From Sulfurimonas marina (GTDB lineage: Bacteria > Campylobacterota > Campylobacteria > Campylobacterales > Sulfurimonadaceae), in NCBI RefSeq assembly GCF_014905095.1, contig NZ_CP041165.1, positions 2,170,001 to 2,234,000 of the forward strand: a stretch of DNA of 64,000 nucleotides. The letters run 5' to 3'. Below, one piece after another: positions 44,318-61,851 of this stretch (positions are counted from its first letter, which is position 1; each line of letters opens with the position of its first letter). The position numbers and the translations under genes are program-made. The notes under the pieces were generated by a model that searched no databases, was not told the DNA's origin, and was given only the letters and a program-made list of their open reading frames with translations.

Positions 44318-46240
44318 CTACGACATTTTTTGTAAATAGAGTACGCTTAGCGGCGCTAAATTAAGGCTGATCATATTTTTTCTTCCATGATAACTTTTTG
44401 GAGTCGTTTTTAAAACATCTTTATTCAAGCTTCCACTCCCTCCAAAAGATTTATCCTCAGAGTTAAAGATCTCTTTATATTCTCCACGTTTTGGCATTCC
44501 CAGCATATATCCTATATGTGCTTTATCGGAAAAATTACATACGATAATCAACGGTTTCTCTTTTATATTGCCCTTACGTATAAATGCAATAACGTTTGCC
44601 CTGTAATCGTTCTCATCGATCCATTCAAAACCGTTACTCTCTACATCGTTTTTATAAAGTGCGGGCTCTTTTTTATAAAGGGTATTGAGCGTATATATAA
44701 GTTTTTTCACCCCTGAATGATTTTCATTCTCTAAAAGATGCCAATCAAGACTTTGTGAGAAATTCCACTCTGCAAACTGGGCGAACTCTCCACCCATAAA
44801 TAGAAGTTTTTTCCCGGGATGCGCATACATCAGACTGTAAAGTGCTCGAAGATTTGCAAATTTTTTGTGATACTCTCCGGGCATCTTATTGATCAAAGAA
44901 CCTTTCATATGCACAACTTCATCGTGACTCAGAGGCAAAACATAGTTTTCGTTATACATATAGACAAAACTGAAAGTGAGGTTTTTATGGTGATGTTGTC
45001 TGTTAATTGGATCATTTTTCATATATTTGAGAATGTCGTGCATCCATCCCATATTCCATTTATATCCAAACCCAAGTCCCCCGTCACTCACAGCACCGCT
45101 TACCATCGGATAGTTTGTAGACTCCTCGGCAAACATCATAATATCTTTATGCTCTGCGTATGCACTGATATTGAGATGGCGTAAAAACTCTACGGCACCC
45201 TTGTTTATGTTACCGCCGTCCTCATTTGGCAGCCACTCCCCATCCTCTCTTGCATAGTTAAGATAAAGCATAGAAGCGACAGCATCGACTCGTATGCCGT
45301 CAAGATGGTATTTATCAAGCCAAAACATTGCAGAACTTACCAGAAATGCGCGTACTTCATTTCGATCGTAGTTGAAAATCGCACTTCCCCATTCCGGATG
45401 GTACCCTTTTCTTGGATCGTGATGTTCATACAAACACGTACCGTCAAAAGTAATCAGCCCGTGCCCGTCAGTTACAAAGTGGGAAGGGACCCAGTCTAAA
45501 ATTACTCCGATATCGTGATTGTGCATAATATTTACAAACTCTTTAAACTGCTCAGGTGTACCGTATCTGGCAGTGGGTGCAAAATAACCAGTTACCTGAT
45601 ACCCCCATGAACCTTCAAAAGGGTATTCAGTAATCGGCAGCAGTTCCACATGGGTAAAACCTAGTTCTTTAATATAGTGTGCAAGTTCATTCGCAGCTTC
45701 CGTATAATTTAAAAAACGGTTGTCCTCTTCAACTTTTCTTCTCCATGAACCCAGATGGATCTCATAGATACTTATGGGTGCTTTATGGGAGTTGTGTTTT
45801 TTACGTTTTTTCATCCATGCATCATCATCCCAAGAAAAAACATTAAGATTCCAAACTTTTGATGCGGATTTCGGAGCAACTTCGGCATAAAATGCAAAAG
45901 GATCTGCTTTTTCTTTACTTACCTGTTCATTATCTGAATCTACATAGTATTTGTAAAGTGTTTCAATACTAACATCACTAACAAACACTTCCCAGATCCC
46001 GGAACCGTCTTGGCGCATCTTTAACGGATGGGTTTGATTATTGAAATTATTAAAATCGGCTATTAAAGAAATTCCCTTTGCACTCGGTGCCCACACAGCA
46101 AAGTAAACACCCTCTTGACCGTTTCTTACATAAGGGTGTGCACCTAGATGCTCATAGAGTTTTGTATGTGTACCCTCTTTAAAAAGGTAGATATCAAACT
46201 CGCTAAAAAGAGTTACATCGTAAAAAGATTCATAGTTCAT
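44318..46240 (-). CDS. glgB: 1,4-alpha-glucan branching enzyme (GH13)
   Basis: 640 residues. Makes alpha-1,6 branches in glycogen. N-terminal CBM48 domain (about 27-125), then the GH13 barrel: DWVPSHF near 245, nucleophile Asp in GIRVDAVASML near 319, acid/base Glu in MFAEEST near 371 and SHDEVVHMKGSL near 440. It lacks the extra N1 domain of the E. coli enzyme (728 residues), as many bacterial GlgBs do. Overlaps glgA by four bases (ATGA). Last gene of the glycogen cluster. Confidence 0.97.
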   Translation of the reverse strand: MNYESFYDVTLFSEFDIYLFKEGTHTKLYEHLGAHPYVRNGQEGVYFAVWAPSAKGISLIADFNNFNNQTHPLKMRQDGSGIWEVFVSDVSIETLYKYYVDSDNEQVSKEKADPFAFYAEVAPKSASKVWNLNVFSWDDDAWMKKRKKHNSHKAPISIYEIHLGSWRRKVEEDNRFLNYTEAANELAHYIKELGFTHVELLPITEYPFEGSWGYQVTGYFAPTARYGTPEQFKEFVNIMHNHDIGVILDWVPSHFVTDGHGLITFDGTCLYEHHDPRKGYHPEWGSAIFNYDRNEVRAFLVSSAMFWLDKYHLDGIRVDAVASMLYLNYAREDGEWLPNEDGGNINKGAVEFLRHLNISAYAEHKDIMMFAEESTNYPMVSGAVSDGGLGFGYKWNMGWMHDILKYMKNDPINRQHHHKNLTFSFVYMYNENYVLPLSHDEVVHMKGSLINKMPGEYHKKFANLRALYSLMYAHPGKKLLFMGGEFAQFAEWNFSQSLDWHLLENENHSGVKKLIYTLNTLYKKEPALYKNDVESNGFEWIDENDYRANVIAFIRKGNIKEKPLIIVCNFSDKAHIGYMLGMPKRGEYKEIFNSEDKSFGGSGSLNKDVLKTTPKSYHGRKNMISLNLAPLSVLYLQKMS

Positions 46241-47715
46241 TGCTTTGGTCTCTCATTATTTGCAGGGTCTAAAATGTAGCGATAGACCGCTTCGTAATCC
46301 TTTGCCGCATCATCCCAGCTAAAATGTTCGCTCATAGCACGTCGTTGCATATCTAAAAAGGCCTCTTTGTCATTGTAATATATACTCATAGCCCATAAAA
46401 CAGTATAGTATAGTGCTTCGGAAGTGGCATCGTAAAACTTAAAACCGTTACCGTGGCGATGATGTTCATCGAAATTCACTATAGTATCGTCAAGCCCTCC
46501 CGTTGCACGTACTATCGGCAAAGTACCGTAGCGCAAACTGTAGATCTGGTTCAGCCCGCAAGGCTCAAAGAGAGAAGGCATTAAAAACATATCACATCCC
46601 GCTTCTATTTGATGTGCAAGAGCTTCACTGTATCCGACATGCAAACCGAAATTACCTCTATGGTGTGCAACATCCGAGAAAAAACCTTCCGCCCACTTCT
46701 CACCGGTTCCAAGCATTACGATCTGCAGATCATTGTCCAAAATTCCGTTAATAGCACTTGAAATAAGTCCTATCCCTTTTTGTTCTGCAAAACGGCCGAC
46801 AAAGCCTATAAGTGGAACATCATCACGCTGTTCTAAATTAAAGTGCTTTTGGATTGCACGTTTACACGCTCTTTTTCCCTTCATCTGATCGCGGTCGAAA
46901 GTTTGCGCTATATAAGTGTCTTTTGAAGGATTCCATTCATCATAATCCACACCATTTAAAATCCCAAAAATTTTCTCTCTATGAGCCCAAAGATGTCCAT
47001 CTAGTCCAAAACCAAACTCCGCTGTCTGGATCTCTCTGGCATAACGTTTTGAGACGGTAGTTACTGCATCGGCATGCATTATACCCCCTTTTAGCATATT
47101 GAGATGATTAAAACTTTCAAACTCATGTGCATTGAAATGCTCCCAGCCAATCTCTAAAAGATCCATCAGCCCTTTGTGAAAAACACCCTGATGCTGCATA
47201 TTGTGAATCGTAAACACTGTTTTGGCATGGGCAAAATCATGTACAAAACGGGTTTTGGCTAAAATAGGCAACAGTGCAGTATGCCAATCGTTAGCGTGGA
47301 TAATATCGGGAGTAAAATGAAGCATCTTACACAACTGCAATGCCGCTTTTGAAAAGAAAACAAAACGCTCACCGTTATCTTTGTATGAGCGGTTATCCTC
47401 CTCGTAAAATCCGGCTCTACCGAAATAGTTTTCATGATCGATAAAATAAACCTGCACACCACTTTGTGGCAAAGTAGTTGTGTAAACTGCAGCCCACAGC
47501 TCACCTATACTTCCCATCGGTACCCCAAGCGGTGTTTCTAATTTTGTAAGATTTTCTTTATCGATCTTGTAATATCTAGGCAGTACAAGGATGATCTCAT
47601 GCCCAAGCTTCTCGATAGCTTTTGGAAGAGCCCCCGCTACATCTGCCAAACCGCCCGTTTTTGCAAAAGGAACCGCTTCTGAAGCGGCAAAAAGGATTTT
47701 TAGTTTTCGTTTCAT
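46237..47715 (-). CDS. glgA: glycogen synthase (GT5), copy 2
   Basis: 492 residues. Adds glucose from a sugar nucleotide to glycogen. N-terminal KTGGLADVAGALP near residue 20 (nucleotide-sugar binding) and C-terminal PSLFEPCGLNQIYSLRYG with the Glu pair of GT-B retaining transferases. One of two GT5 synthases in the cluster; their matching motif regions differ clearly (for example GLNQIYSLRYG here, GLAQMIAMRYG in the other), so they are not recent duplicates. An 88-base gap separates it from the ROK gene, room for a separate promoter. Confidence 0.95.
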   Translation of the reverse strand: MKRKLKILFAASEAVPFAKTGGLADVAGALPKAIEKLGHEIILVLPRYYKIDKENLTKLETPLGVPMGSIGELWAAVYTTTLPQSGVQVYFIDHENYFGRAGFYEEDNRSYKDNGERFVFFSKAALQLCKMLHFTPDIIHANDWHTALLPILAKTRFVHDFAHAKTVFTIHNMQHQGVFHKGLMDLLEIGWEHFNAHEFESFNHLNMLKGGIMHADAVTTVSKRYAREIQTAEFGFGLDGHLWAHREKIFGILNGVDYDEWNPSKDTYIAQTFDRDQMKGKRACKRAIQKHFNLEQRDDVPLIGFVGRFAEQKGIGLISSAINGILDNDLQIVMLGTGEKWAEGFFSDVAHHRGNFGLHVGYSEALAHQIEAGCDMFLMPSLFEPCGLNQIYSLRYGTLPIVRATGGLDDTIVNFDEHHRHGNGFKFYDATSEALYYTVLWAMSIYYNDKEAFLDMQRRAMSEHFSWDDAAKDYEAVYRYILDPANNERPKQ

Positions 47716-47797
47716 AGATTCTCCTACTAATAAATCTCATATAATCCGAACAAAGTCCAGATTATATTCAGTCACTAAAGCTCTGCCTTATGGCAAG

Positions 47798-47818
47798 AAG
47801 GAGTCATTTTAACTCCTT
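47798..47818 (-). terminator. hairpin at the end of the ROK gene
   Basis: AAGGAGT / ACTCCTT with a seven-base loop, overlapping the ROK stop. No T-run follows, so termination may be partial before the glgA-glgB pair. Confidence 0.45.
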
Positions 47819-48643
47819 TAAAAGCGATGCACCTTGCAGCACTGCGTTTTGTAGTTTTGTTTTAACAATACGAAGCCCTTGTGTACTTTGTAGCATACTA
47901 AACTCTCTATAGCGTGCTAAAACCGTTTCAAAAATAGTTTCATCGTCTGCAACGATCCCTCCCCCTAAAACTAAAACTTCAGGATTAAAAAGAGTTATCA
48001 CCACTCCAACTGCATCTAAAAGAGCCTCTTCAAACTCTTTATAAAGCTCATTGTGCTCTGTAAGTGTAGAATCTCTAAGTTCTTGAAGTGTAAGGGCTTC
48101 ATCAATTTGCAAATAACGTTTAAACTTTTTAAGCCCCGATCCCGAAGCAAAAAGCTCTATACAGTTGTCTTTACCGCAACCGCAGAAAAAGGGGGCTTTT
48201 TTATAAGGGATATGTCCAATCTCTCCAGCTAACGCGTTATACCCCTCTAATAAACTTCCGTTAGTAATAACCCCCAGTCCAAGACCGCTCCCTACATAGA
48301 GTGCACAGATCTCCTCTGTCTGGAAATATTTTGCTTCTGCCAAAACGGCACAGGAGAGATCGTTTTGTATCAAAAACTCCACATCGTATCTGCTTTGAAA
48401 ATAGTTTTTAATATTTGGCTCTGTCACTTCTATATTTGGAGCGCCAAGAATTATTCCATCTTTTACCTGTCCTGCATACCCTACGGCTATTGTTTTTACA
48501 ACTTTATATCTTTGCAGCAGCTTTTCGATCCAAGATATAAAACCAATACCGTTGCACTTTTCACTCCCTGTGTCTAGCTCTTGCTCCCCATTATAAAGAG
48601 CGTAACGGAAATATGTCCCTCCGGCATCTATACACAGCTTCAA
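47804..48643 (-). CDS. ROK-family sugar kinase (probable glucokinase)
   Basis: 279 residues. ATP-binding DAGGTYFRYALY near residue 6; sugar-binding GEIGHIPY near 145; ROK zinc motif CGCGKDNCIE near 157-166. Phosphorylating free glucose released by glucan breakdown fits its place in the cluster. Starts four bases before the end of the upstream glgA. Substrate inferred from context. Confidence 0.88.
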   Translation of the reverse strand: MKLCIDAGGTYFRYALYNGEQELDTGSEKCNGIGFISWIEKLLQRYKVVKTIAVGYAGQVKDGIILGAPNIEVTEPNIKNYFQSRYDVEFLIQNDLSCAVLAEAKYFQTEEICALYVGSGLGLGVITNGSLLEGYNALAGEIGHIPYKKAPFFCGCGKDNCIELFASGSGLKKFKRYLQIDEALTLQELRDSTLTEHNELYKEFEEALLDAVGVVITLFNPEVLVLGGGIVADDETIFETVLARYREFSMLQSTQGLRIVKTKLQNAVLQGASLLKELK

Positions 48644-50031
48644 AACAAACTCTCATACAGCTTCATATAGCTCTTTGCGCCTCTCTCAAAAGAGAAATCG
48701 CACTCCATATTAAAAACCACCGACTCCCTAAAAGCCTCTGTATCTTTTTTAAGTTTAAAAGCCCGCTCTATCGCCTTGGAAAACTCTTTTTTCGTAAACT
48801 TTTCAAACACAATTCCTCTGCCACATCCATTTTTCTTTTCATGGACACTGTCTTTTAAGCCACCTGTTGCATGGACAATGGGGATAGCTCCGTATCGCAT
48901 AGCTATCATCTGTGCTAAACCGCAAGGCTCAAACAAAGAGGGCATTACAAAAAAATCTGCCGCAGCGTATGCTTTATGGGAAAGTACCTCATCGTAAACG
49001 TTTTGAAATTCAAGGTTTGCGTGCTTAGAAGACAGAGCATTAAGTTTGTTAGTATAAAGCTCTTTCCCCTCTCCGAGAACAAAAACATTGATCTTTTTTT
49101 CCAACATCTCAGGAAGCACTTTTATCAAAAGTTCGATCCCTTTTTGCTCCACTAATCTTGAGAGTACTACAAACAGAGTTTTTCTCGGATCTTTAAGTTT
49201 GGTTGTTTTTAAAAATGCAACTTTGTTTTTATACTTGTTCTCTAATGTAGTGCTGTCGTAACACTCTTGAAGATGAGGATCGCTTGCAGGGTCAAAAACT
49301 TCCGTATTGATTCCGTTTAATATACCGCTTAACTTATCACTATGGTAGCTTAAAAATCCATCCAAGCCACAGCCAAATTCGCCGGTGAGGATCTCTTGTG
49401 CATAACTGGGGCTGACCGTTGTCACGGCATCGGAGTATGCGATCCCCCCTTTCATAGAGTTGAGCTGTCCATAAAATTCTAAAGCATCCATATTAAAGTA
49501 ACTAGGCTCTATCCCAAGGCGTTCACACGACTCTTGTGAAAATATTCCCTGATAAGCAAGATTATGGATAGTAAAAACGGTTTTTATCGCTAATGATCTT
49601 TGCTCTATGAAAAGAGCTGCTAAAGCAGTATGCCAGTCATTGAGATGAAGAAGATCAATCTTTAGTCTTACAGCCAACTCTACAATGCTTGCACTAAAGA
49701 TCCCAAAACGCAGATCGTTGTTTGCATAATCAATATCGTTATAACCATAAAGGTGCTGCGTAGTACTTAAAAGGGGCGCTTTTATAAAATAAACACCCAA
49801 CCCCTCTTGCAGAGTAAAATAGACTTCAATACTATACGAAATTCCGCCCAGTTCAAGTTCAAAATCCTCAACTTTTTCTAGGTTCTGCAGCTCTAAAAAA
49901 CCATACAAAGGGAGCACGACAGAGATATCTGTATATTTTTTCAGTGCTCTTGGAAGTGCATCTGCAACATCTGCAAGTCCCCCCGTTTTCACATAAGGTA
50001 GCATCTCACTCGCAGCAAATAATACCCTCAT
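48640..50031 (-). CDS. glgA: glycogen synthase (GT5), copy 1
   Basis: 463 residues from the ATG at 50031, chosen because GGAGGAG lies five bases upstream and the ATG overlaps the galT stop (ATGA); a longer reading from 50061 adds unlikely residues. KTGGLADVADALP near residue 15 and PSLFEPCGLAQMIAMRYG near 365. Full-length GT5 fold. Overlaps the ROK gene by four bases. Possible division of labour with copy 2 is unknown. Confidence 0.93.
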   Translation of the reverse strand: MRVLFAASEMLPYVKTGGLADVADALPRALKKYTDISVVLPLYGFLELQNLEKVEDFELELGGISYSIEVYFTLQEGLGVYFIKAPLLSTTQHLYGYNDIDYANNDLRFGIFSASIVELAVRLKIDLLHLNDWHTALAALFIEQRSLAIKTVFTIHNLAYQGIFSQESCERLGIEPSYFNMDALEFYGQLNSMKGGIAYSDAVTTVSPSYAQEILTGEFGCGLDGFLSYHSDKLSGILNGINTEVFDPASDPHLQECYDSTTLENKYKNKVAFLKTTKLKDPRKTLFVVLSRLVEQKGIELLIKVLPEMLEKKINVFVLGEGKELYTNKLNALSSKHANLEFQNVYDEVLSHKAYAAADFFVMPSLFEPCGLAQMIAMRYGAIPIVHATGGLKDSVHEKKNGCGRGIVFEKFTKKEFSKAIERAFKLKKDTEAFRESVVFNMECDFSFERGAKSYMKLYESLF

Positions 50032-51050
50032 AGCTCCTCCCCTCGCAGTAGCCTTGCACACTCTTCTGGCTCCATACAGTTAATAGCCATACCGCTTGAG
50101 AGCTCAAAGCCTCCTATATTATAGATCCTAGGAATTATTCGCAAAGTAAAACGGAAATTTTGTTCTAAAAGTGCCATATAGCTTTCGTTTTCAAAGTTTT
50201 GATTGAGAGGTGCCTGCATAAAGGCCAAATTATAATCAAAAGAACCCAGCTGTTTTGAGAGTTTTGCAAATATCGATTTTACTAAAACTCCCAGCTCCTC
50301 CAACTCTTTTTTAGTGGCTTTATGCAGTGAGATGATATTGTTCACGGGAGAGATCATCACCTCAAAAGGATAACTGCTTGCAAAAGGACAAAAAGCAACA
50401 AAATTTTGTGTCTGTGTAATAAGTCGTTTTTTAAACAAGATCTCATTATGCAAAATATCTTCAACTATCCCTCTGCCGTGTCTTTGATAATAAAGCATAT
50501 TTCTGCTCAAAAAATAGATCGCATCTTTTGGCATCACCGGCAAAGCAATAATTTGAGTATGTGGATGCTGCTGCGTAGCACCCGCATCTTTGCCTACATT
50601 TTTAAATACACTTATATAAACCAAGCGCTTATCTTTTTGAAGGTCTTCCATTCTCGTTACTATTGTTTTTATCCAGTTTTGCACATCGTTCTCATCTAGG
50701 TCTTCCATATTACAAGAGTGGCAAGGATTATCTATAACAATCTCATGGGCTCCAAGTCCCGGAACTGACTCAAACATTCCGTCACGCTTTGAGCTCTCAC
50801 TCGCTTCTATCTGTACCGCTTTATAGAGATTTGGTACAACACGAGTCTTCCAACCTGACATATTTGGCTCGTTTTTACGCAATGCAAAGATCTCTGCGGG
50901 AGTAAGATGCTCGTTACCTTCACAAAAAGGGCAATTACTTTGTGGAGTTTCAAGAGATTTTGAAGCTGTTACACTATTTGGTCTTCGAAGCCTTTCAGGA
51001 GCTATGATCACATACTGATTAGCAATTCTATCGTGTCTTATCTCAGACAT
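50028..51050 (-). CDS. galT: galactose-1-phosphate uridylyltransferase
   Basis: 340 residues. Two HIT-like domains. Zinc cysteines CPFC at 40-43 and a second CHSC at 110-113; the active-site His is in QQHPHTQI near 161-167 (HxHxQ, with Thr where many have Gly). It exchanges UMP between UDP-glucose and hexose-1-phosphate. In a glucan cluster without other Leloir genes it may act on glucose-1-phosphate or other nucleotide sugars, which is inference. Overlaps the GH57 gene by eight bases. Confidence 0.92.
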   Translation of the reverse strand: MSEIRHDRIANQYVIIAPERLRRPNSVTASKSLETPQSNCPFCEGNEHLTPAEIFALRKNEPNMSGWKTRVVPNLYKAVQIEASESSKRDGMFESVPGLGAHEIVIDNPCHSCNMEDLDENDVQNWIKTIVTRMEDLQKDKRLVYISVFKNVGKDAGATQQHPHTQIIALPVMPKDAIYFLSRNMLYYQRHGRGIVEDILHNEILFKKRLITQTQNFVAFCPFASSYPFEVMISPVNNIISLHKATKKELEELGVLVKSIFAKLSKQLGSFDYNLAFMQAPLNQNFENESYMALLEQNFRFTLRIIPRIYNIGGFELSSGMAINCMEPEECARLLRGEEL

Positions 51051-53037
51051 CGCATATCTCCAAGCTTATATGTAAATCTAGTTTTTGTTCCATAGAGAAG
51101 CTACAAAAAAGTGTTAGTTGCTGGGGTGTTTTATCGTATCCGCTTTCGCTTTTTGCAATACTGCTTGCTATATATGCATGCACATCACACTCCTGCTGAC
51201 TTTGTAAACGCACTGATTTGTTTGTAAAATCATCATACAATGCTATCTCCCTGCAATTTTTTTGACTGAACCCTTCAGCTATTTTTTCCCCGTTAAGTGT
51301 AAGTGTCGAGAGATGAGCGAAATGAAGGTTAAACTCTAAAGCATAATAGAGCCGATCTTCTAACTCACTAAAGAGCTGCAGATCGAGATGAAGTGCTTTA
51401 TCTTTGACTCTGTATCTCTTTTCTATCTGCACATTTGCATGCTCAAAAACACTCCCTTGTGTAAAAAACAATATATTACCCTTTTGTAACTTACATTCAG
51501 CAGCACTTTGCACTCTTTTAATCTCTTGAGAGCCCTCTCTCAAATGCTCTAATACGAAAGGTTTTTTTGAAAAACAATCGATAAAAGAGTACCTAGGGAT
51601 AGAGTCAAACACAAGCTCTTTTTTAAGCAGCTCATCCATAACCATCCCATCGTGGATCGACTCAAGCTCTTTTGTCTCTTCTAAAAGTTCGGGCTGAAAA
51701 TGGTAACTCTCCTCTTTTCTCATCAGAGTGTTTTGCCAGTTAAAAAGTGTTTCAAAAGAGCCAAACTCCATAAGGGTTCCCCCCTCTTTTAAGGAGAATA
51801 CCAAAGAGAGTTCATCTGTTCTTACTTTGAGTTCTTCATATCCATCTTGATCGATATCTAAAAACTCCTTCTCTTTACGCTCAAATCCTCTTTCAATCTC
51901 TAAAAGATATCTGTAGGCATTATCTCGTAAGTTCGGCAAGTAGATCCCGCCGAATACACCATGCCAAAAGACATCGTTTGTTTGAAGTTTATACAGAGCC
52001 TCTTTTTGTACCTTGGAGAAACTCTCACTTTGTTTGCTAAGCCATAACATCCGTTTGTGCAAATAATTGCTCTCGGGATATTTCACAAAAAAGTTTTTCC
52101 ATATCCCCCCTTTTACAAATGCTATCCCTTTTTTCTCCATATACTCTTGACCAAGATACTTTTGCAGGGCATGCAACTCTTTTGCATCCTCATTATTTAA
52201 ACTCCACTCACCCATCTCAAAGTAAGAGGTGTTATTAAGATAAGCAATCCCCAAAGAGTGATGCTCTTGCATATACTCTTTATAGTGTTGCGTTACAATT
52301 AACTGTTCGTCCAATACTAAACGTACAAACTTCTCAAGCCAACCCTGCTCGTACACCCATTCAAAAGTGTTAGGCCACAGTCCAAACTTCTCTGCATCAT
52401 CGAAAAAAACAGCAGCTGAACCATCTCTGTTTCTATATCCGAGTACACTCTCTATCGCTTTTTCAACGTTAGAAAAAGGAAGATCGTAGCGAAGCGGCTT
52501 GGAGATAGGAAACAGTGCACACTTAGCTCCACCCTCTTCGGTTGTATAATACCCGTCAAGCTTCTTAGCCGGAAATCCGCTGCTTAAAAAGTGGTAGTCA
52601 TCCACTACTACATACTCAATTCCACATTGTACAAGGTCTGGAATCAAAGTACTCTCCCATACTCGCTCAGTGAGCCAAAGCCCTTTTGGACGAACTCCAA
52701 AATGTTTTTTTAAAAACCTGTTTAACTTTTTCACTTGTGCTATGCGATCGTTTGAGGGAATAGCACTGAGTACCGGTTCATAGTATCCCGCTGTCAACCA
52801 CTCGATGGAACCTTTTTGTGTAAGTAGTTTCATCACGTTAAAAAGTTCAGGGTATTTTTTCCTAATCTCGTTAAGGAGCCATCCGCTGCAATGCAAAGAG
52901 AATTTAAACTCCGGATAACGCATCATCACGTCAAAAAAAGGTTTATAACTTTTCGCTACAGCCTCTGCTATACACTCGCTGAAATTATCTACCGGTTGGT
53001 GCATATGTACGCCAAAAAGTAAAGTAACTTTTTCCAT
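51043..53037 (-). CDS. GH57 4-alpha-glucanotransferase
   Basis: 664 residues from the ATG at 53037; a GTG at 53058 inside the upstream gene is less likely. GH57 motifs: HMHQP at 11-15, catalytic nucleophile Glu124 in WLTERVWES and acid/base Asp in FFDDAEKFGLW at 211-221. These match the position and context of Thermococcus litoralis 4-alpha-glucanotransferase. The C-terminal half is the beta-sandwich DUF1926-type domain. It rearranges maltodextrins during glucan metabolism. Cytoplasmic. Confidence 0.92.
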   Translation of the reverse strand: MEKVTLLFGVHMHQPVDNFSECIAEAVAKSYKPFFDVMMRYPEFKFSLHCSGWLLNEIRKKYPELFNVMKLLTQKGSIEWLTAGYYEPVLSAIPSNDRIAQVKKLNRFLKKHFGVRPKGLWLTERVWESTLIPDLVQCGIEYVVVDDYHFLSSGFPAKKLDGYYTTEEGGAKCALFPISKPLRYDLPFSNVEKAIESVLGYRNRDGSAAVFFDDAEKFGLWPNTFEWVYEQGWLEKFVRLVLDEQLIVTQHYKEYMQEHHSLGIAYLNNTSYFEMGEWSLNNEDAKELHALQKYLGQEYMEKKGIAFVKGGIWKNFFVKYPESNYLHKRMLWLSKQSESFSKVQKEALYKLQTNDVFWHGVFGGIYLPNLRDNAYRYLLEIERGFERKEKEFLDIDQDGYEELKVRTDELSLVFSLKEGGTLMEFGSFETLFNWQNTLMRKEESYHFQPELLEETKELESIHDGMVMDELLKKELVFDSIPRYSFIDCFSKKPFVLEHLREGSQEIKRVQSAAECKLQKGNILFFTQGSVFEHANVQIEKRYRVKDKALHLDLQLFSELEDRLYYALEFNLHFAHLSTLTLNGEKIAEGFSQKNCREIALYDDFTNKSVRLQSQQECDVHAYIASSIAKSESGYDKTPQQLTLFCSFSMEQKLDLHISLEICDV

Positions 53038-53045
53038 CTTTTTAC

Positions 53046-55067
53046 CTATACAAACCACTCGTGGGAATAATCATCGTAAAGATTAATTTTCAACTCCCCA
53101 AAACTCGGTAATATCTGCACCACTTTTCCATCTTTTTCAATCTCAAAACGGATTAGGATCTCGTTTGAATCCAGATTCTCTTTTGTAATACTCATCTCTA
53201 AAAGCTCATCACACACGCTGAAAATCTCCACCTCATCAATAACAATCGTCTCGTTGGGCAGTGTGATTTTTCCGTGAATATTGCCCGGTTCAAGAATAAT
53301 TTCTAAACTATCGTTTTCACATAAGCTTTCCATATCCGCTTCAAAAGAAAAGTAAAGTTTCTTTTTATCTTGTCCGTAAAAGATCTTATTTATCGGACCC
53401 CTTGCCATATCCATTGTAGAGAACACTTTTGTTTCATCCACTACCCCGCAACCTATCCATTCAAAGAATGAATCACGTTTGCCGTTGATCATCGGGGAGA
53501 TATCAGATTTTGGATGTAACCAAAAGTTTTGTGTACTTTTATGCTGTGTAATCGGTATATACAGATCTGCAGGGGGTGCTATCTCTAAAAGGTTATAAAT
53601 AGTAATCAAATGATTTCTAAATAGTTCATCAAACTCCTCTTCAAACTCACTAAAATGATCATCACCGTACCACCAAAACCAATCTGAACACTCCGCTGCT
53701 AAAAAGTGCTGTGTTATCAACTCTTGTTTCTTGGGCTCAAGCTGCTCTTTATGGTGCTCATAATCCTGCTTTGTCATAAAAAGAAGCTCCCAGCCTCTTG
53801 TTTTTTCACTACCCCCTACCCAGGTATTAAACTCGCCATGTATCCAACTTCCGGGAGCTAAATGTTCAAGTTTTTTCGCAGGAAGCTGACACACCTCATC
53901 CATCGTCAGGGTTTGGCACCATGAAAGAGATTGCAGTTTTGTATAGAGGCTTTGAAAGAATTCGTATCCGTTTGCTTTATAAAACTCCCAAGCATTTTCC
54001 CCGTCTAAAATAACACAGACAAGCGGATCGCTGTTTTTAGACTCTATTTTTTGCAACTCTTTAATAAAATCTACGGCCGCGCTCTCGGCATTTTTATGAC
54101 GATAGGTAAAACCGATAAGATCACTTAGATAGTGATCCCTAAAACAGATCCTCATCCCGTTATATATATAAGGATAATAAAGCAGCTCTTTGTCTGTTTT
54201 GTTTAAAGATTTAAAAAGTATCGCCTCATCTGTTGCGATCCAGCCTACACTTTGAGAGTTATAAAGCGCTACACTTTTTTGATCTACTGCCCCCTCAGCC
54301 GGCCAGAAACCGCTTGGTTTAAAACCAAAAACATCCTCAAAGATCTCTTGTGCCCTTTGGACCTGTAAACGAGCATCCTCCTCTAGAGAAATATGGTTTT
54401 TTGGAATGTTTGTCATGGGATGGGCATCTAAAGCATTATTCATATCAAGAAGTAAAGGTAAGATAGGATGATTTAGCGGTGTTGTAGAAAAGCTGATTGA
54501 ACCTTTGGCAGCCAGCTCTTTAAAATAGTCAAAAATTCCTCTCATAAAATTTTGTAACTCATCTAAGAGATGTTTTTTATCATACTCGTTATAGTCTCTT
54601 TCTTTTTCTAACAACTCTTGTACAACACTGCTGTTTTGACGCAAATAATTCCCGCACCACGACAAAATAAACAAAACCTCAAGTTCTATCAGTTCACAAC
54701 GGTTATAGTCATACTGAGCAAAAAGCTCTTTATATCGCTTAAACGGTTTAATCATTGTCTCGTAGTTGGAGCTTTTACATATTTTTACGATCCAAGCCTT
54801 CTCTTCATCTTGCAGTTTTGCCGTGTCGTCTCGTAAAAGAGTTAAGAACTTATCGTTTTTGCTTAGATCGTTTGCATAAAGCTGCAACTGTTTTATAAGT
54901 GAAGGGGTGATATTAAAAGTTGCTTTAAGCCCCTCTTTACCCTCTACTATCCAAGGCATATCGTAATAATCTTTTATAGCATGCAAAAATACCCAAGGCA
55001 ACTGCATTACACCGCTTGCATCTGTATAATCAGGCTGATGCATATGCCATAAAAAACTCAACTTCAT
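53046..55067 (-). CDS. GH57 alpha-amylase-type enzyme
   Basis: 673 residues. GH57 motifs: HMHQPDY at 8-14, nucleophile Glu258 in GFWPAEGAVD, and acid/base Asp in LDGENAWEF near 352. It resembles the AmyA/amylopullulanase-like group, with a C-terminal beta domain from about residue 500. No signal peptide, so it acts on internal glucan. Nine bases after the fusion gene and probably cotranscribed with the other GH57 gene. Exact specificity cannot be set from sequence. Confidence 0.9.
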   Translation of the reverse strand: MKLSFLWHMHQPDYTDASGVMQLPWVFLHAIKDYYDMPWIVEGKEGLKATFNITPSLIKQLQLYANDLSKNDKFLTLLRDDTAKLQDEEKAWIVKICKSSNYETMIKPFKRYKELFAQYDYNRCELIELEVLFILSWCGNYLRQNSSVVQELLEKERDYNEYDKKHLLDELQNFMRGIFDYFKELAAKGSISFSTTPLNHPILPLLLDMNNALDAHPMTNIPKNHISLEEDARLQVQRAQEIFEDVFGFKPSGFWPAEGAVDQKSVALYNSQSVGWIATDEAILFKSLNKTDKELLYYPYIYNGMRICFRDHYLSDLIGFTYRHKNAESAAVDFIKELQKIESKNSDPLVCVILDGENAWEFYKANGYEFFQSLYTKLQSLSWCQTLTMDEVCQLPAKKLEHLAPGSWIHGEFNTWVGGSEKTRGWELLFMTKQDYEHHKEQLEPKKQELITQHFLAAECSDWFWWYGDDHFSEFEEEFDELFRNHLITIYNLLEIAPPADLYIPITQHKSTQNFWLHPKSDISPMINGKRDSFFEWIGCGVVDETKVFSTMDMARGPINKIFYGQDKKKLYFSFEADMESLCENDSLEIILEPGNIHGKITLPNETIVIDEVEIFSVCDELLEMSITKENLDSNEILIRFEIEKDGKVVQILPSFGELKINLYDDYSHEWFV

Positions 55068-55076
55068 TGCTCTGTC

Positions 55077-57581
55077 CTATTGGGCGATCCACTGCGCCAT
55101 TTTTTCTTTATACTGCTTAAAGAGATTCTCACCGGCAACATCATCTTTAGCCTGAATATAAAGATTTAAATACTCTCCGTATTGGTTTGGAATCATAAGG
55201 ATCCAGTCTGTCTCGTTCTCCCAGATCTTCACCCCGTCTAAATGGGAAGACTTTTTCCCTTTGGCACTCTCTAAAAATTTTCTCATCATCTTCGCTTTTA
55301 AAGATTGAGGGCACTCCACTTTTGTTGTTTTGTAATAAAAATAATCGATCTCTTTTGCTACTTCGGAGAGTTTTAAACCGCTGACAGTAAGAAGTTCAAG
55401 AATTTTTAATGTTGAATAAAGAGCATCACGAGTATAGTTAAACTCACTAAAGGTATAGTTTCCATCAACCGTAGCTATAAAATCGTATCGCTTTAACTGT
55501 TCTACCGTAAAGTCGGTATATTTTCCCCTCTCTATAATTAAGTTGTCAAACTCCAGTACATCGGGTGCCCAAGTGGGTAAAAATACTTTCTTTTTCTCAT
55601 CCGGTTTTGTAGTGATACTTAGAAGATATAATACACAATGAAGTGACTTGATCTTGTTTAACACCTCACCCAGATCAGTAACTAACGTAATTATTTGAGC
55701 ATTTGGAGCTATCAATACCCCCATATCATGCCCTAAACTTTGCACAATTTTTGAAATATTCTCCGTCGAGCGTTTTTTCATTACGACGAAATTTGAAAGC
55801 TTTTGCTCATCATAGTAGGAGTTGAGAACTATATTTTCTATTCCCAATTCATTTAAAATTGTAGGAAAAACTTTTGCGGAATTTCCATGCATAAGGTCAA
55901 CGGCTATTCTCAGATTACTTTGTCGGATACCCACCTGATCTAAACACTTCTCAATACTGTTCTTATAATCTAAACACTCTTCACAATAATTACTCTCAAA
56001 TATCTCACCGATACTCGCATGTTCAACGCGTCTGAACTTCTCGATAAAAAATGCCTTTTCTATCACCTTTGCCGCTGAAGTATTTATACGTACAGCATGC
56101 TCGTCAAAAAGTGTGATCTCGGAATTACGAGGATCATTAATACAGCGTTTAAACTGAGCACCCCCTACATATTTTGAACTATTTGCCAAGGTATAGCGCA
56201 GCAGTGGCTGCGGTATGCTTTTTAAATCATGTACATGTACACCGGCTGAGAGCAATCCTCCTAAAAAAGCGCGTTTAAGCATACGTGAATTTTTATCATC
56301 ATCCCGTCCCACAAGTACCGTTGAACCCACAGGTAATTGCGAAGCAAACGCTTCGGCAAGTTTTGTCGCCATCTCACAAGAGAGCTCTACGTTACTTGTA
56401 CCGATTACGCTTCCATTTTCAAAAATCGAGTTTTTGTATCTGCTTCCTAACACTATATTGTGGCTCACTATAGAAGCTGCCTCGATCTTTTTATCCGGCC
56501 AGACCGTAATATCACGTTCAAAAGAGCTTAACTCTCCAATCTCACACCCCTCGGCCAAAATAAGTCCCGCTTTTACACTGACATTTTTGCCGATAGTATT
56601 GTTGTTACAAATTACTGCGTTATCGAGTTTTGTTTTTTTACCTATAAAAACATTTTCCCAGATCACACTGTTCCTGATTTTAGAATCCGCATCGATCACA
56701 ACATTATCTGATATTACGCTGTTATAGAGCTTGACACCGTTGTTAAGAGTCACTTTTTTACCTAAAACAACCGTCCCAGTAATCTCGATGGATGGATCCA
56801 AACTATACGGTTTTTCCGAATACAACACACCGTCTGGAAATAGCTGTTTGTGTCCGTCAAGCAGAAAATCGACATGGTGAGCCAAAATATCTTCATACAC
56901 TTCGCGATAACTCTCCGGATTTCCAACATCTCTCCAGTAGCCACTTAGGTTACATCCCATAAGATCAACCTTTTGCTGCATCAATAACGGAAATAGATCC
57001 TTTCCAAAATCGAAGTTCTCGTTTTTCGGTATATACTCCAAAATCTCCGGTTCAATCACATAGATTCCAGTATTGATAGTATCACTAAACACCTCACCCC
57101 AGCTCGGTTTTTCCAAAAACTTTTCAATTACACCCTCTTCATTGACAATCACCACTCCAAATTGCAAAGGGTTATCTACAGAGGTTAAGCCTATGGAGAG
57201 TTTTGAGTTTTTCTCTTTATGGAAAGCAAAAAGGTTTTTAAAATCAAAATCTGTAACAAGATCGCCGCTGATTACAATAAAGTTTTCATCACCTATATGC
57301 TCTTGAGCAAGTTTAACAGCTCCCGCCGTTCCGTAATCATCATCAGGAAGTACATAGGTGATCTTGATCCCAAAGTCACTTCCGTCTTTAAAGTAGTCTT
57401 TTATAATCTCAGGTTTAAAATAGAGCAGTACGATAAATTCTGTTATGCCGATCTCTTTGAGCATCATCATCGTATGCTCCATCATCGGTTTATTCATTAT
57501 TGGCAGCATCGGTTTTGGTTTGGAGTTTGTCAAAGGTTGAATCCTTGTACCAAACCCTCCGGCCATCACAACAGCTTTCAT
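55077..57581 (-). CDS. sugar-nucleotide transferase fused to an inactive phosphomutase domain
   Basis: 834 residues. Residues 1-235: nucleotidyltransferase, with GGFGTRIQPLT at 8-18 and SGDLVTDFDF at 105-114. Residues about 255-390: left-handed hexapeptide repeats. Residues about 395-834: phosphomannomutase/phosphoglucomutase fold. In the last part the phosphoserine loop TASHNP is replaced (GGAQFKRCINDP, 473-484) and the DGDxDR metal loop reads APNAQIIT (625-632), so mutase activity is not expected. Known relatives are annotated mannose-1-phosphate guanylyltransferase. In this cluster it may supply the glycosyl donor, as no glgC is present. Starts immediately after the phosphorylase gene. Confidence 0.88.
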   Translation of the reverse strand: MKAVVMAGGFGTRIQPLTNSKPKPMLPIMNKPMMEHTMMMLKEIGITEFIVLLYFKPEIIKDYFKDGSDFGIKITYVLPDDDYGTAGAVKLAQEHIGDENFIVISGDLVTDFDFKNLFAFHKEKNSKLSIGLTSVDNPLQFGVVIVNEEGVIEKFLEKPSWGEVFSDTINTGIYVIEPEILEYIPKNENFDFGKDLFPLLMQQKVDLMGCNLSGYWRDVGNPESYREVYEDILAHHVDFLLDGHKQLFPDGVLYSEKPYSLDPSIEITGTVVLGKKVTLNNGVKLYNSVISDNVVIDADSKIRNSVIWENVFIGKKTKLDNAVICNNNTIGKNVSVKAGLILAEGCEIGELSSFERDITVWPDKKIEAASIVSHNIVLGSRYKNSIFENGSVIGTSNVELSCEMATKLAEAFASQLPVGSTVLVGRDDDKNSRMLKRAFLGGLLSAGVHVHDLKSIPQPLLRYTLANSSKYVGGAQFKRCINDPRNSEITLFDEHAVRINTSAAKVIEKAFFIEKFRRVEHASIGEIFESNYCEECLDYKNSIEKCLDQVGIRQSNLRIAVDLMHGNSAKVFPTILNELGIENIVLNSYYDEQKLSNFVVMKKRSTENISKIVQSLGHDMGVLIAPNAQIITLVTDLGEVLNKIKSLHCVLYLLSITTKPDEKKKVFLPTWAPDVLEFDNLIIERGKYTDFTVEQLKRYDFIATVDGNYTFSEFNYTRDALYSTLKILELLTVSGLKLSEVAKEIDYFYYKTTKVECPQSLKAKMMRKFLESAKGKKSSHLDGVKIWENETDWILMIPNQYGEYLNLYIQAKDDVAGENLFKQYKEKMAQWIAQ

Positions 57582-59246
57582 CTAGTCCTTCCCTCCCTCT
57601 TCTATTTTATATTCATAGAGCAATTCATAATACTCTTTGGCCATTCTGGTAGAATCAAATTCCAAATCGATTTCAGTCATCGCATTTTTCATAATTTTTG
57701 TCCATTTTTTTGGATTTTCATAGTATGTAGGGAGAATCTTTTGCTCTAAAATATCCATCATATTTTTGTTATCTATCCTGTCTTGTTCATCGTGACCTAA
57801 AAGGTGGTCAACTGGCGGGATAGTAAAAGCATTTCTTCGATCCCTTGCAAATTCCGGATGCCATCCATCATCGATCGAAAAATGGATAGAGCCGTTCATA
57901 CTGGCACTCATTCCACTTGTACCGCTTGCCTCTCTTGTAATACGCGGAGTATTCAGCCAAAGATCACTGCCCTGTTTCAGGAGTCTTGAAAGACTGAGCT
58001 CATACCCTATCAATACGGCGATATTTTTATATCTGTGACTCATATAAATAAGATCATTAAAAAGACTCACAGCTCCGCTATCTGTCGGGTAAGGTTTGCC
58101 CGCCCATATAATTTGAACCGGCATTTGCGTATTTGCAAGCAGCTTTTCAAATCTTCTAAGGTCATACTTTAAAAGCCCCGGTCTTTTATATTCTGCAAAA
58201 CGTCTTGCCCATACAATCGTAAATATATCGGGATCAAACATCTTTCCTGACTGGTTGGCAACTTCGTCAAAAAGAATTTTTTTCAGGTGTTTTTTTCGCG
58301 CTTGGAGTTCATAATCTTCATGCTCATCAAGGGCACGTATAAGCGTCTTATCGGTCCAGTATTTTTTATTTTGGGCATTGGTAATTGAGATAATTTCACA
58401 GCTGTCTGGAACCTCTTTCCACATATGTTGTGCAACTTTTTTATGGATTTTTGAAACGGCATTGGAACGTTTAGAATTTCTCAAAGCTTCTACTGTGAGG
58501 TTAAGTTTCTCTTTATGGCAACTGCAAAGTGAAGCTACCTCCTCTTTTGTCAGTGAACTGAAAAACCCCATCTCTTCTAAAAAATCAACCCTGTGTGTTT
58601 CATTTCCTGCTGCTTCTGGAGTATGGGTTGTAAAGACTACATGCTCTTTTACTTTTTGTGTATCTTTTAAACGTGAATGTAACTCATAGACAAGCGGAAG
58701 GGAGTGCCCTTCGTTCATATGGTAGACATCCACCTTTCTGTTCATAGCTTCAAGAACCTTAAGTCCCCCGATTCCTAGAACAATCTCCTGTGCTATACGT
58801 GTTCGTTCATTGGAGTCGTAAAGTTTATGGGTAATAGTTCTTGAGAGGTAATCGTTTTCGTCAATGTCAGTGGAGAGTAAAAGGATAGGTGCGGTTCCGA
58901 AAACTTCGGGATGGAGTAAAAAGGCTTTTATAACAACATCACTGTTTTCTATTCGGACAGTAACTTTTTGTTCAAGCTCTTCTAAAAAGTAGTAGAACTT
59001 TCTTAAATAATTGGGTTTCAATGTCCTGTCTTCATTTCTTCCCTGATCGTAGTAGCCGAAACTCCATAATATTCCTATCCCTACGATATTTTGTTTGAGG
59101 TCATATGCACTTCGCATATGAGAGCCGGCTAAAAAGCCGAGACCTCCAGAATAGATTTTTAAAGCCTGGTCAACAGCGAACTCCATAGAGAAGTAAGCAA
59201 CACTTGTTTTATAGTTCTTGTTTATATCGTAGGAATGCAGTTTCAT
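57582..59246 (-). CDS. alpha-glucan phosphorylase-like GT35 protein lacking the PLP lysine
   Basis: 554 residues, the short (archaeal/Thermotoga) phosphorylase form. YFSMEFAVDQALKIYSGGLG near 18-37 and the MNEGHSLPLVYE region near 170 are family features, as is the EASGTSG segment near residue 439. The PLP-bearing Lys of GTSGMK is Ser447 here (GTSGMSASMNG). Without PLP, classical phosphorolysis is not expected, so the protein may be a non-phosphorolytic glycosyltransferase or a regulator. A good ribosome site (AAAGGG) precedes the ATG. First gene of the cluster. Confidence 0.87.
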   Translation of the reverse strand: MKLHSYDINKNYKTSVAYFSMEFAVDQALKIYSGGLGFLAGSHMRSAYDLKQNIVGIGILWSFGYYDQGRNEDRTLKPNYLRKFYYFLEELEQKVTVRIENSDVVIKAFLLHPEVFGTAPILLLSTDIDENDYLSRTITHKLYDSNERTRIAQEIVLGIGGLKVLEAMNRKVDVYHMNEGHSLPLVYELHSRLKDTQKVKEHVVFTTHTPEAAGNETHRVDFLEEMGFFSSLTKEEVASLCSCHKEKLNLTVEALRNSKRSNAVSKIHKKVAQHMWKEVPDSCEIISITNAQNKKYWTDKTLIRALDEHEDYELQARKKHLKKILFDEVANQSGKMFDPDIFTIVWARRFAEYKRPGLLKYDLRRFEKLLANTQMPVQIIWAGKPYPTDSGAVSLFNDLIYMSHRYKNIAVLIGYELSLSRLLKQGSDLWLNTPRITREASGTSGMSASMNGSIHFSIDDGWHPEFARDRRNAFTIPPVDHLLGHDEQDRIDNKNMMDILEQKILPTYYENPKKWTKIMKNAMTEIDLEFDSTRMAKEYYELLYEYKIEEGGKD

Positions 59247-61032: not shown

Positions 61033-61039
61033 ACCTCTT
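61020..61039. terminator. shared hairpin of pyrE and flagellin genes
   Basis: AAGAGG / CCTCTT with an eight-base loop containing the pyrE stop, followed on the plus strand by TATTTG. Confidence 0.5.
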
Positions 61040-61851
61040 TATTTGAGCAAGCGCATAACACTAGCAAGTGATGTATTCGCTTGCGCTTGAGCAAATGAAC
61101 CCGCTTGGGTCATAATATTTTGTTGTGAAAAATTCATACTCTCTTTCGCAAAATCAACATCTCTTATCTGCGATTCTGCTGATGCTATATTAATCTGTGA
61201 CTGTGATATATTTCTAAACGTTGATTCAAGTTGATTTTGAGAAGCTCCAATTGTAGCCTGAGTAGAATTGATCTGCTCCATAGCACTATCAATGCTATCA
61301 AGTGCATTCGATCTTCCTGTAACTGTTGTAACATCGATGCTTCCAACTAAATTTGCAGTACTCATATCTGGAATATTTAACCTTTGTGTTTCACCACTAT
61401 TAGCACCTATCTGTAAAGTAAGTGATTCTGAACCGTCTAAAAGATTTTTTCCATTGAATGATGTTCCCTGAACAATACTATCCATAGATTTTAAAACGCC
61501 ATCTATCTCTTTTTGAATAATTGCCCTATCACTGTCATTTAATGTTCCATTTGATGCTTGCAGAGTCAATGTTCTAATTCTATTTAAATTATCATTTAAT
61601 CCTTGTACAGCACCATCCGCAGTTTGTACTAATCCAATCCCATCATTGATATTCATCATAGCTTGACCATACCCAGATACCTGTGCAGAGAGTCCATCAG
61701 AGATAGCTAATCCTGCTGCATCATTTGCAGCATTTGCCAATGCATCCCCAGATGCCAACATAGCTAACGTTCTATCTAAGGCTTTTTGACTGTTCTGTGT
61801 TGAAAGATTTGTATATAAGGACGAGACATTTGTATTTATTTTAAAACCCAT
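61039..61851 (-). CDS. flagellin (short form, D0/D1 only)
   Basis: 270 residues, against about 570 for Campylobacter or Helicobacter flagellin. Conserved N-terminal domain (INTNVSSLYTNLSTQNSQKAL, 5-25) and C-terminal domain (MTQAGSFAQAQANTSLASVMRLL) flank a very short middle, so the outer D2/D3 domains are missing. The NRIRTLTLQASNGTLN region is closer to the beta/gamma-type flagellin pattern than to Campylobacter FlaA. It stands alone, away from flagellar genes; no sigma-28 promoter is convincing. Likely an accessory or main filament subunit. Confidence 0.92.
   Translation of the reverse strand: MGFKINTNVSSLYTNLSTQNSQKALDRTLAMLASGDALANAANDAAGLAISDGLSAQVSGYGQAMMNINDGIGLVQTADGAVQGLNDNLNRIRTLTLQASNGTLNDSDRAIIQKEIDGVLKSMDSIVQGTSFNGKNLLDGSESLTLQIGANSGETQRLNIPDMSTANLVGSIDVTTVTGRSNALDSIDSAMEQINSTQATIGASQNQLESTFRNISQSQINIASAESQIRDVDFAKESMNFSQQNIMTQAGSFAQAQANTSLASVMRLLK

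Follow-up and report, generated by a model that had tools for sequence, protein, structure and literature searches.

What does a GT35-type protein do when the lysine that should hold its pyridoxal phosphate (PLP) is missing? The question is raised by the first gene of the glycogen operon in the window, the 64,000-nucleotide stretch of the Sulfurimonas marina genome analysed here. Its product, a TIGR02094/GT35-type protein of 554 amino acids, carries a serine at the PLP-lysine position; we call it the S-form, and its lysine-bearing relatives Lys-forms. The operon comprises the following genes:

57582..59246, minus strand: S-form GT35-like protein without the PLP lysine (TIGR02094, PF00343, AlphaFold2 model)
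55077..57581, minus strand: nucleotidyltransferase-phosphomannomutase/phosphoglucomutase-like fusion, directly downstream of the S-form (PF00483 plus PGM_PMM I/II)
53046..55067, minus strand: GH57 protein (PF03065)
51043..53058, minus strand: GH57 alpha-amylase/4-alpha-glucanotransferase (PF03065, PF09094, PF09095)
50028..51050, minus strand: GalT-like nucleotidyltransferase (PF01087/PF02744)
48640..50061, minus strand: GlgA2, GT5 glycogen synthase (TIGR02095, 500.7 bits)
47804..48643, minus strand: ROK-family sugar kinase (PF00480)
46237..47715, minus strand: GlgA1, GT5 glycogen synthase (TIGR02095, 558 bits at G000:C1:2216276-2217700)
44318..46240, minus strand: GlgB, branching enzyme (TIGR01515, 829.8 bits)

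With GlgA1, GlgA2, GlgB and GH57 genes downstream, the S-form gene does open a full glycogen cluster, as the initial annotation had stated. GlgC is absent from the operon; the fusion gene at 55077-57581 stands there instead and reaches 138 bits against the GlgC cut-off of 425, and its nucleotide and sugar specificity would show which NDP-glucose the pathway uses. The two GT5 GlgA paralogues flank the ROK kinase (46237-50061), and both are present in many S-form relatives. The GalT-like protein (50028-51050) is kept in nearly all glycogen clusters compared. In plants, an ADP-glucose phosphorylase is found among the GalT-like proteins, and by analogy the GalT-like protein of the operon may interconvert NDP-glucose and glucose-1-phosphate. 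Elsewhere in the window, positions 61039-61851 encode a short flagellin-like protein of 270 amino acids.

The reading of codon 447 as AGT, a serine in place of the PLP lysine, is borne out by the DNA (GCA AGC GGT ACA AGT GGA ATG AGT GCC AGT ATG AAC) and by a profile alignment with enterobacterial GlgP, in which Ser447 falls on the PLP-lysine column (REASGTSGMSASMNG versus TEASGTSNMKFALNG). The S-form exceeds the cut-offs of TIGR02094 (436.8 bits, cut-off 191.7) and PF00343 (49 bits, cut-off 27) and stays far below those of the classical GlgP/MalP model TIGR02093 (42.2 bits, cut-off 552.9) and of the GT5 GlgA model TIGR02095 (38.1 bits, cut-off 328.45). Judged by its sequence, the S-form is thus related by descent to GT35, with full-length similarity to TIGR02094 and to the structure 9l6i (Z 34.9), yet it departs from the family in lacking the PLP-binding lysine of GTxxMK. 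A PF00343 search of the single-contig 2.26 Mb genome matched the S-form gene only; it is the sole GT35 protein of its genome, which rules out a second canonical phosphorylase elsewhere.

The substitution extends far beyond S. marina. The initial annotation had guessed that it may be a subfamily trait shared with other phyla, and this proved an understatement: the main finding is a subfamily-wide loss of the PLP lysine. Among 146 non-redundant sequences of the S-form branch the position is occupied by Thr (98), Ser (46) or Ala (2) and never by Lys, so that the cofactor column, which the initial annotation had wished to see aligned, offers a lysine in none of them; all 26 sampled relatives outside the branch carry Lys in the joint alignment. 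The branch spans four phyla, namely Campylobacterota, Bacteroidota, Verrucomicrobiota and Pseudomonadota (Halopseudomonas). In a survey of 397 Campylobacterota genomes the short form (~550 amino acids) was readable at 67 places (S 37, T 28, A 2, K 0), and a separate long form (~710 amino acids) with GTSGMK was found in 16 genomes. A search through 84,980 species genomes for the conserved peptides VFTTHTPE and EASGTSGM, both of which end before the residue in question, yielded 80 further loci in other genomes of Bacteroidota, Verrucomicrobiota, Pseudomonadota and Campylobacterota (T 70, S 10, K 0). Two plasmid-borne Bacteroidota S-forms have Thr at the position, and Lys was found in the remaining plasmid-encoded GT35 proteins that were examined, among them short ones of 560-564 amino acids. 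Among viruses, one pattern match was obtained and none encoded a relative.

Serine is encoded at position 447 by both AGY and TCN codons and threonine by all four ACN codons, which indicates that a small hydroxyl residue is maintained. Six pairs give dN/dS values of 0.025-0.059 (with dS saturated in one of them), so the gene evolves under strong purifying selection, in agreement with the earlier view that it is under use and not decaying. Clade-wide conservation, the multiple codons and the dN/dS values together rule out a sequencing error, decay or a private mutation. In the GT35 tree, which had also been proposed at the outset, the S-forms make up one side of an edge with SH-aLRT 100, separated from the Lys-forms by a stem of ~2.4 changes per site; because long branches meet here, as a warning of the tree program notes, the placement of the S-form group among the Lys-forms is uncertain and the tree leaves the ancestral state of the lysine undecided. 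The Sulfurimonas locus L159 clusters in this tree with loci from the window's own genus. In one relative, the intact gene is preceded, just upstream, by a second copy of the S-form start, 48 residues long (G143:C3:274437-274580).

The rest of the active site is retained. Three stretches of the gene, in addition to codon 447, are of importance here:

57906..57908, minus strand (read 57908-57906): codon 447, AGT, Ser at the PLP-lysine position (DNA read and alignments)
57930..57932, minus strand: Glu439, which opens the E-x7-(E/K) pair, equivalent of Glu672 of rabbit glycogen phosphorylase (GP); invariant in 146/146
57975..57977, minus strand: Lys424, candidate alternative cofactor lysine (K in 146/146 S-forms versus V in 19/26 Lys-forms)
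58185..58202, minus strand: R349-x4-K354 phosphate-binding motif (RFAEYK), invariant in 146/146; aligns with KRIHEYKR of GlgP

No variation is seen across the 146 S-forms and 26 Lys-forms at Gly34, Gly35, Leu36, Gly37, His208, Asn290 and Trp297, nor at Arg349, Tyr353, Lys354, Glu439, Gly442 and Thr443. Their counterparts in rabbit phosphorylase, mapped via the GlgP alignment, are G134, G135, L136, G137, H377, N484 and W491 for the first seven and R569, Y573, K574, E672, G675 and T676 for the others, all belonging to the glucosyl and phosphate subsites; the glucosyl/phosphate residues by which GT35 is recognised (GP G134, G135, H377, N484, R569, Y573, K574, E672, G675 and T676) are thus present in 146/146. 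Other positions are invariant or nearly so in the S-form branch and differ from the Lys-form: K30, S42, Q52, W61, Y66, Q292, K318, Q332, V345-W346, P385-Y386, E416, S420 and K424. Three of these are lysines (Lys30, Lys318 and Lys424) that never vary in the branch and are absent or rare in the Lys-form, and Lys424 lies in a helix just past the PLP-contact segment Y415-E416. The PLP side of the cleft therefore appears, from these alignments, to have been rebuilt, and the sugar-phosphate side to have been retained.

An AlphaFold2 model built from an alignment of 57 S-forms (pLDDT 91.8, pTM 0.92) has the phosphorylase fold, in line with the initial remark that the fold looks intact. The best structural matches are the Segatella copri glycogen phosphorylase 9l6i (Z 34.9) and MalP (Z 32.8). 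The former is a TIGR02094 protein, homologous over the full length (30% identity over 541 residues), which has the E, H, N and R-x4-K site in common with the S-form; it differs in keeping the lysine (GTSGEKAEMNG) where the S-form has Ser/Thr, in ~300 extra residues and in lacking ~20 other invariant residues specific to the S-form branch. Classical GlgP/MalP proteins share the GT-B fold, the GTSxM loop and the phosphate-site residues with the S-form, whereas the S-form lacks their PLP lysine and reaches only 42 of the 553 bits required by TIGR02093.

The genomic neighbourhood points to a place in glycogen metabolism that is otherwise taken by the Lys-form. The glycogen cluster of the window recurs in most of 17 stretches from 14 relatives. 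In two genomes (G006, G224) a Lys-form lies immediately upstream of the nucleotidyltransferase-phosphohexomutase fusion gene, which is the slot of the S-form in the window. Three others (G013, G029, G031) have both forms at the head of the operon, in the order Lys-form, pgm, pgi, S-form, fusion gene, GH57 and so on, where pgm (phosphoglucomutase) and pgi (glucose-6-phosphate isomerase) were identified by reading the sequences, without a profile search. The 73 Campylobacterota genomes with GlgA divide into 57 with the S-form only, 5 with the Lys-form only, 10 with both and 1 with neither; the two forms tend toward mutual exclusion (Fisher p ~0.001 over the 73 genomes, with relatedness ignored). 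One or both forms therefore occur in 72 of the 73, and outside the GlgA set in only two genomes, one with a decayed Lys-form (G053) and one with a fragmented assembly (G346), so that Campylobacterota that make glycogen nearly always carry one. Conversely, GlgA is found in 72 of the 74 Campylobacterota genomes with either form, which rules out the S-form as a simple replacement of GlgA in this phylum. Over all 115 S-form genomes, the S-form is the sole GT35 protein in 101. The broken Lys-form-like GT35 gene of G053 (G053:C1:456693-458225) lies in a genome without GlgA and is consistent with decay following loss of the pathway.

The lysine is lost throughout the clade, the rest of the site and the fold are kept under purifying selection, and the S-form shares its slot with the Lys-form. 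We infer that the S-form is most likely catalytic, that its reaction is most likely phosphorolysis and that PLP is most likely not bound covalently. In its complete form our preferred explanation, to which we would tentatively give somewhat less than an even chance, is that the S-form is an alpha-glucan-active GT-B enzyme in the phosphorylase slot that carries out phosphorolysis by inorganic phosphate without Schiff-base PLP; it is preferred because the S-form shares this slot with the Lys-form. The S-form would phosphorolyse alpha-1,4-glucan ends to glucose-1-phosphate, and the inorganic phosphate, held by the invariant R349 and K354, would itself perform the proton transfer. The part of the PLP phosphate could be taken by a second phosphate or by a loosely bound phosphate ester.

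Among GT4 enzymes, the retaining trehalose phosphorylase is not known to use PLP. The reaction of the S-form would be a front-face (SNi-like) one like that of this enzyme, which has an R-x4-K motif (PMC12018205); for GT4 and GT35 phosphorylases alike, a front-face mechanism with the phosphate itself as proton donor is thought to apply (PMC8950772). The Schizophyllum commune enzyme carries out retaining phosphorolysis with R-x4-K (PMC12018205; PMC8950772), and R349-x4-K354 is invariant in the S-form; it belongs to another family with another substrate and is likened here as a mechanistic precedent only. An early case of rescue by phosphate analogues is the pyridoxal-reconstituted phosphorylase (Parrish 1977, as cited in PMC12018205). 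Against full redundancy of the two forms, S-form and Lys-form coexist in one operon in some genomes, which implies that they are not fully interchangeable. The invariant differences at V345-W346, P385-Y386, E416, S420, K424, Q292 and K30 would fit another donor or cofactor equally well.

Such a donor is at the centre of the strongest alternative, which we consider rather improbable, namely that the S-form is a nucleotide-sugar-dependent, or at least nucleotide-accepting, alpha-glucan glucosyltransferase in which a nucleotide would sit where PLP otherwise does, as it does in the GT5/GT3 glycogen synthases, and which would act in synthesis or, running in reverse, in breakdown. The E-x7-E pair is a known feature of retaining GT-B enzymes, and position 447 is its second position (E439+8). 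The two GlgA proteins of the window have neither Lys nor Glu there (FEPCGLNQIY, FEPCGLAQMI), and GT5 synthases such as EcGS (2qzs) and SSIV (6gne) resemble the S-form in this as well as in the catalytic set of H, N, R, K and E residues. The model matches the ADP-bound GT5 starch/glycogen synthases with Z 31.6-31.7, close to the range for phosphorylases (Z 31-35); this likeness of fold, however, extends to all GT-B glucan enzymes, a global hhalign comparison of the S-form profile with GlgA gave no useful alignment, and the S-form scores 38 bits against the TIGR02095 cut-off of 328. Moreover, most S-form genomes own a GlgA, those of Campylobacterota nearly always one or two, and a phosphorylase role is indicated by the slot that the S-form shares with the Lys-form and by the partial exclusion of one form by the other. 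It has also been proposed that PLP entered a proto-GT35 enzyme that used NDP-sugars (PMC11046441), which would speak for a nucleotide.

The S-form genomes outside Campylobacterota bear on the same question. In 44 of 47 no canonical GT35 protein was found; 2 have a Lys-type TIGR02094 protein, as judged by length and score, and 1 a classical TIGR02093 phosphorylase. A full-length GT5 GlgA above the cut-off is present in 28 of the 47, GlgC in 26, GT3 in 5 and branching enzyme in 46 (47 of 48 among all genomes searched); GlgE was found in 7 of 22 searched, and several Verrucomicrobiota have weaker full-length GlgA-like proteins. A glucan synthase of one kind or another was found in most. Three Algoriphagus (G404, G406, G414) and two Akkermansia genomes (G431, G439) combine the S-form with a branching enzyme, and no full-length GT5, GT3, GlgE or GlgC was found in them at the thresholds applied. 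The S-form is the only chain-elongation candidate found in these five, which would fit a synthetic role better and provide the best argument for it; the genomes are partly drafts or metagenome bins, and GT4-type glucan synthases may be present in them.

In Bacteroidota and Verrucomicrobiota the genes around the S-form mostly have no link to glycogen and, apart from GlgB in some, gave no functional hint. The Pontibacter plasmid S-form adjoins type II GAPDH and DUF1622, as short Lys-forms do, and the Runella plasmid S-form lies close to YihY/BrkB, again as short Lys-forms do. In Runella rosea a gene of the pyridoxamine 5'-phosphate oxidase family directly follows the S-form (L083:10639-11079), possibly by coincidence. 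Chitinophagaceae loci (L097, L101, L104, L107, L110, L119 and others) have a conserved lipoprotein-like gene upstream, with an Nramp-like transporter and a DtxR-type regulator nearby, all named by eye. Proteins of ~275 amino acids that match only the N-terminal half of GlgA occur in Bacteroidota, including genomes without a full GlgA (G399, G404, G406, G407, G414, G418, G419, G422, G428, G438 and others); a conserved GlgA-GT5 fragment is also mentioned in a review (PMC11046441).

Another, unlikely reading keeps the S-form as an ordinary phosphorylase, in which PLP would be bound either without a covalent link or through a Schiff base with a different lysine, for example Lys424. Phosphorylase catalysis relies on the 5'-phosphate of PLP and not on its aldehyde; all branch members have Lys424, which apparently sits one helical turn past a PLP-contact residue, and they retain Trp297, Tyr415 and the phosphate site. 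However, throughout the branch several positions invariant in the Lys-form carry other residues, which points to a remodelled pocket, beyond the loss of one bond. That the S-form is a pseudo-enzyme, binding glucan or regulating glycogen metabolism, is very improbable: it lacks a residue long considered essential, has a minimal length (~550 amino acids) without the terminal extensions of the Lys-form and coexists with the latter in 10-11 genomes, but the glucosyl and phosphate residues checked are fully conserved in 146 sequences from four phyla, which makes a mere binding protein less likely, and in most genomes it is the sole GT35 protein.

Phosphorolysis by phosphate alone and a nucleotide in the PLP pocket would both amount to PLP-less turnover of alpha-glucan by a clade inside the GT35 fold, in at least four phyla, and this broader statement we regard as reasonably probable. 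GT35 is said to require PLP uniquely among phosphorylases and to contain phosphorylases only (PMC4336185). PLP has been discussed as a late addition to an ancestor that used NDP-sugars, and how it came to occupy the nucleotide site of other GT-B enzymes is an open question (PMC11046441), which a natural, conserved branch without the lysine makes directly testable. We found no description of such a branch in the open-access literature, to which our search extended. Annotation is affected as well, since the TIGR02094 model accepts these proteins, and S-forms of Pontibacter and Runella are labelled glgP, 'alpha-glucan family phosphorylase'.

In this textbook family of B6-dependent glycogen breakdown, a large branch in at least four bacterial phyla has the cofactor lysine always replaced, and its proteins probably handle glycogen by a different chemistry. 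For most glycogen-storing Campylobacterota and many Bacteroidota, the S-form stands alone as a candidate for glycogen phosphorolysis. If PLP-less turnover holds true, GT35 would no longer uniquely require PLP, and the clade would constitute a living model of a PLP-less phosphorylase.
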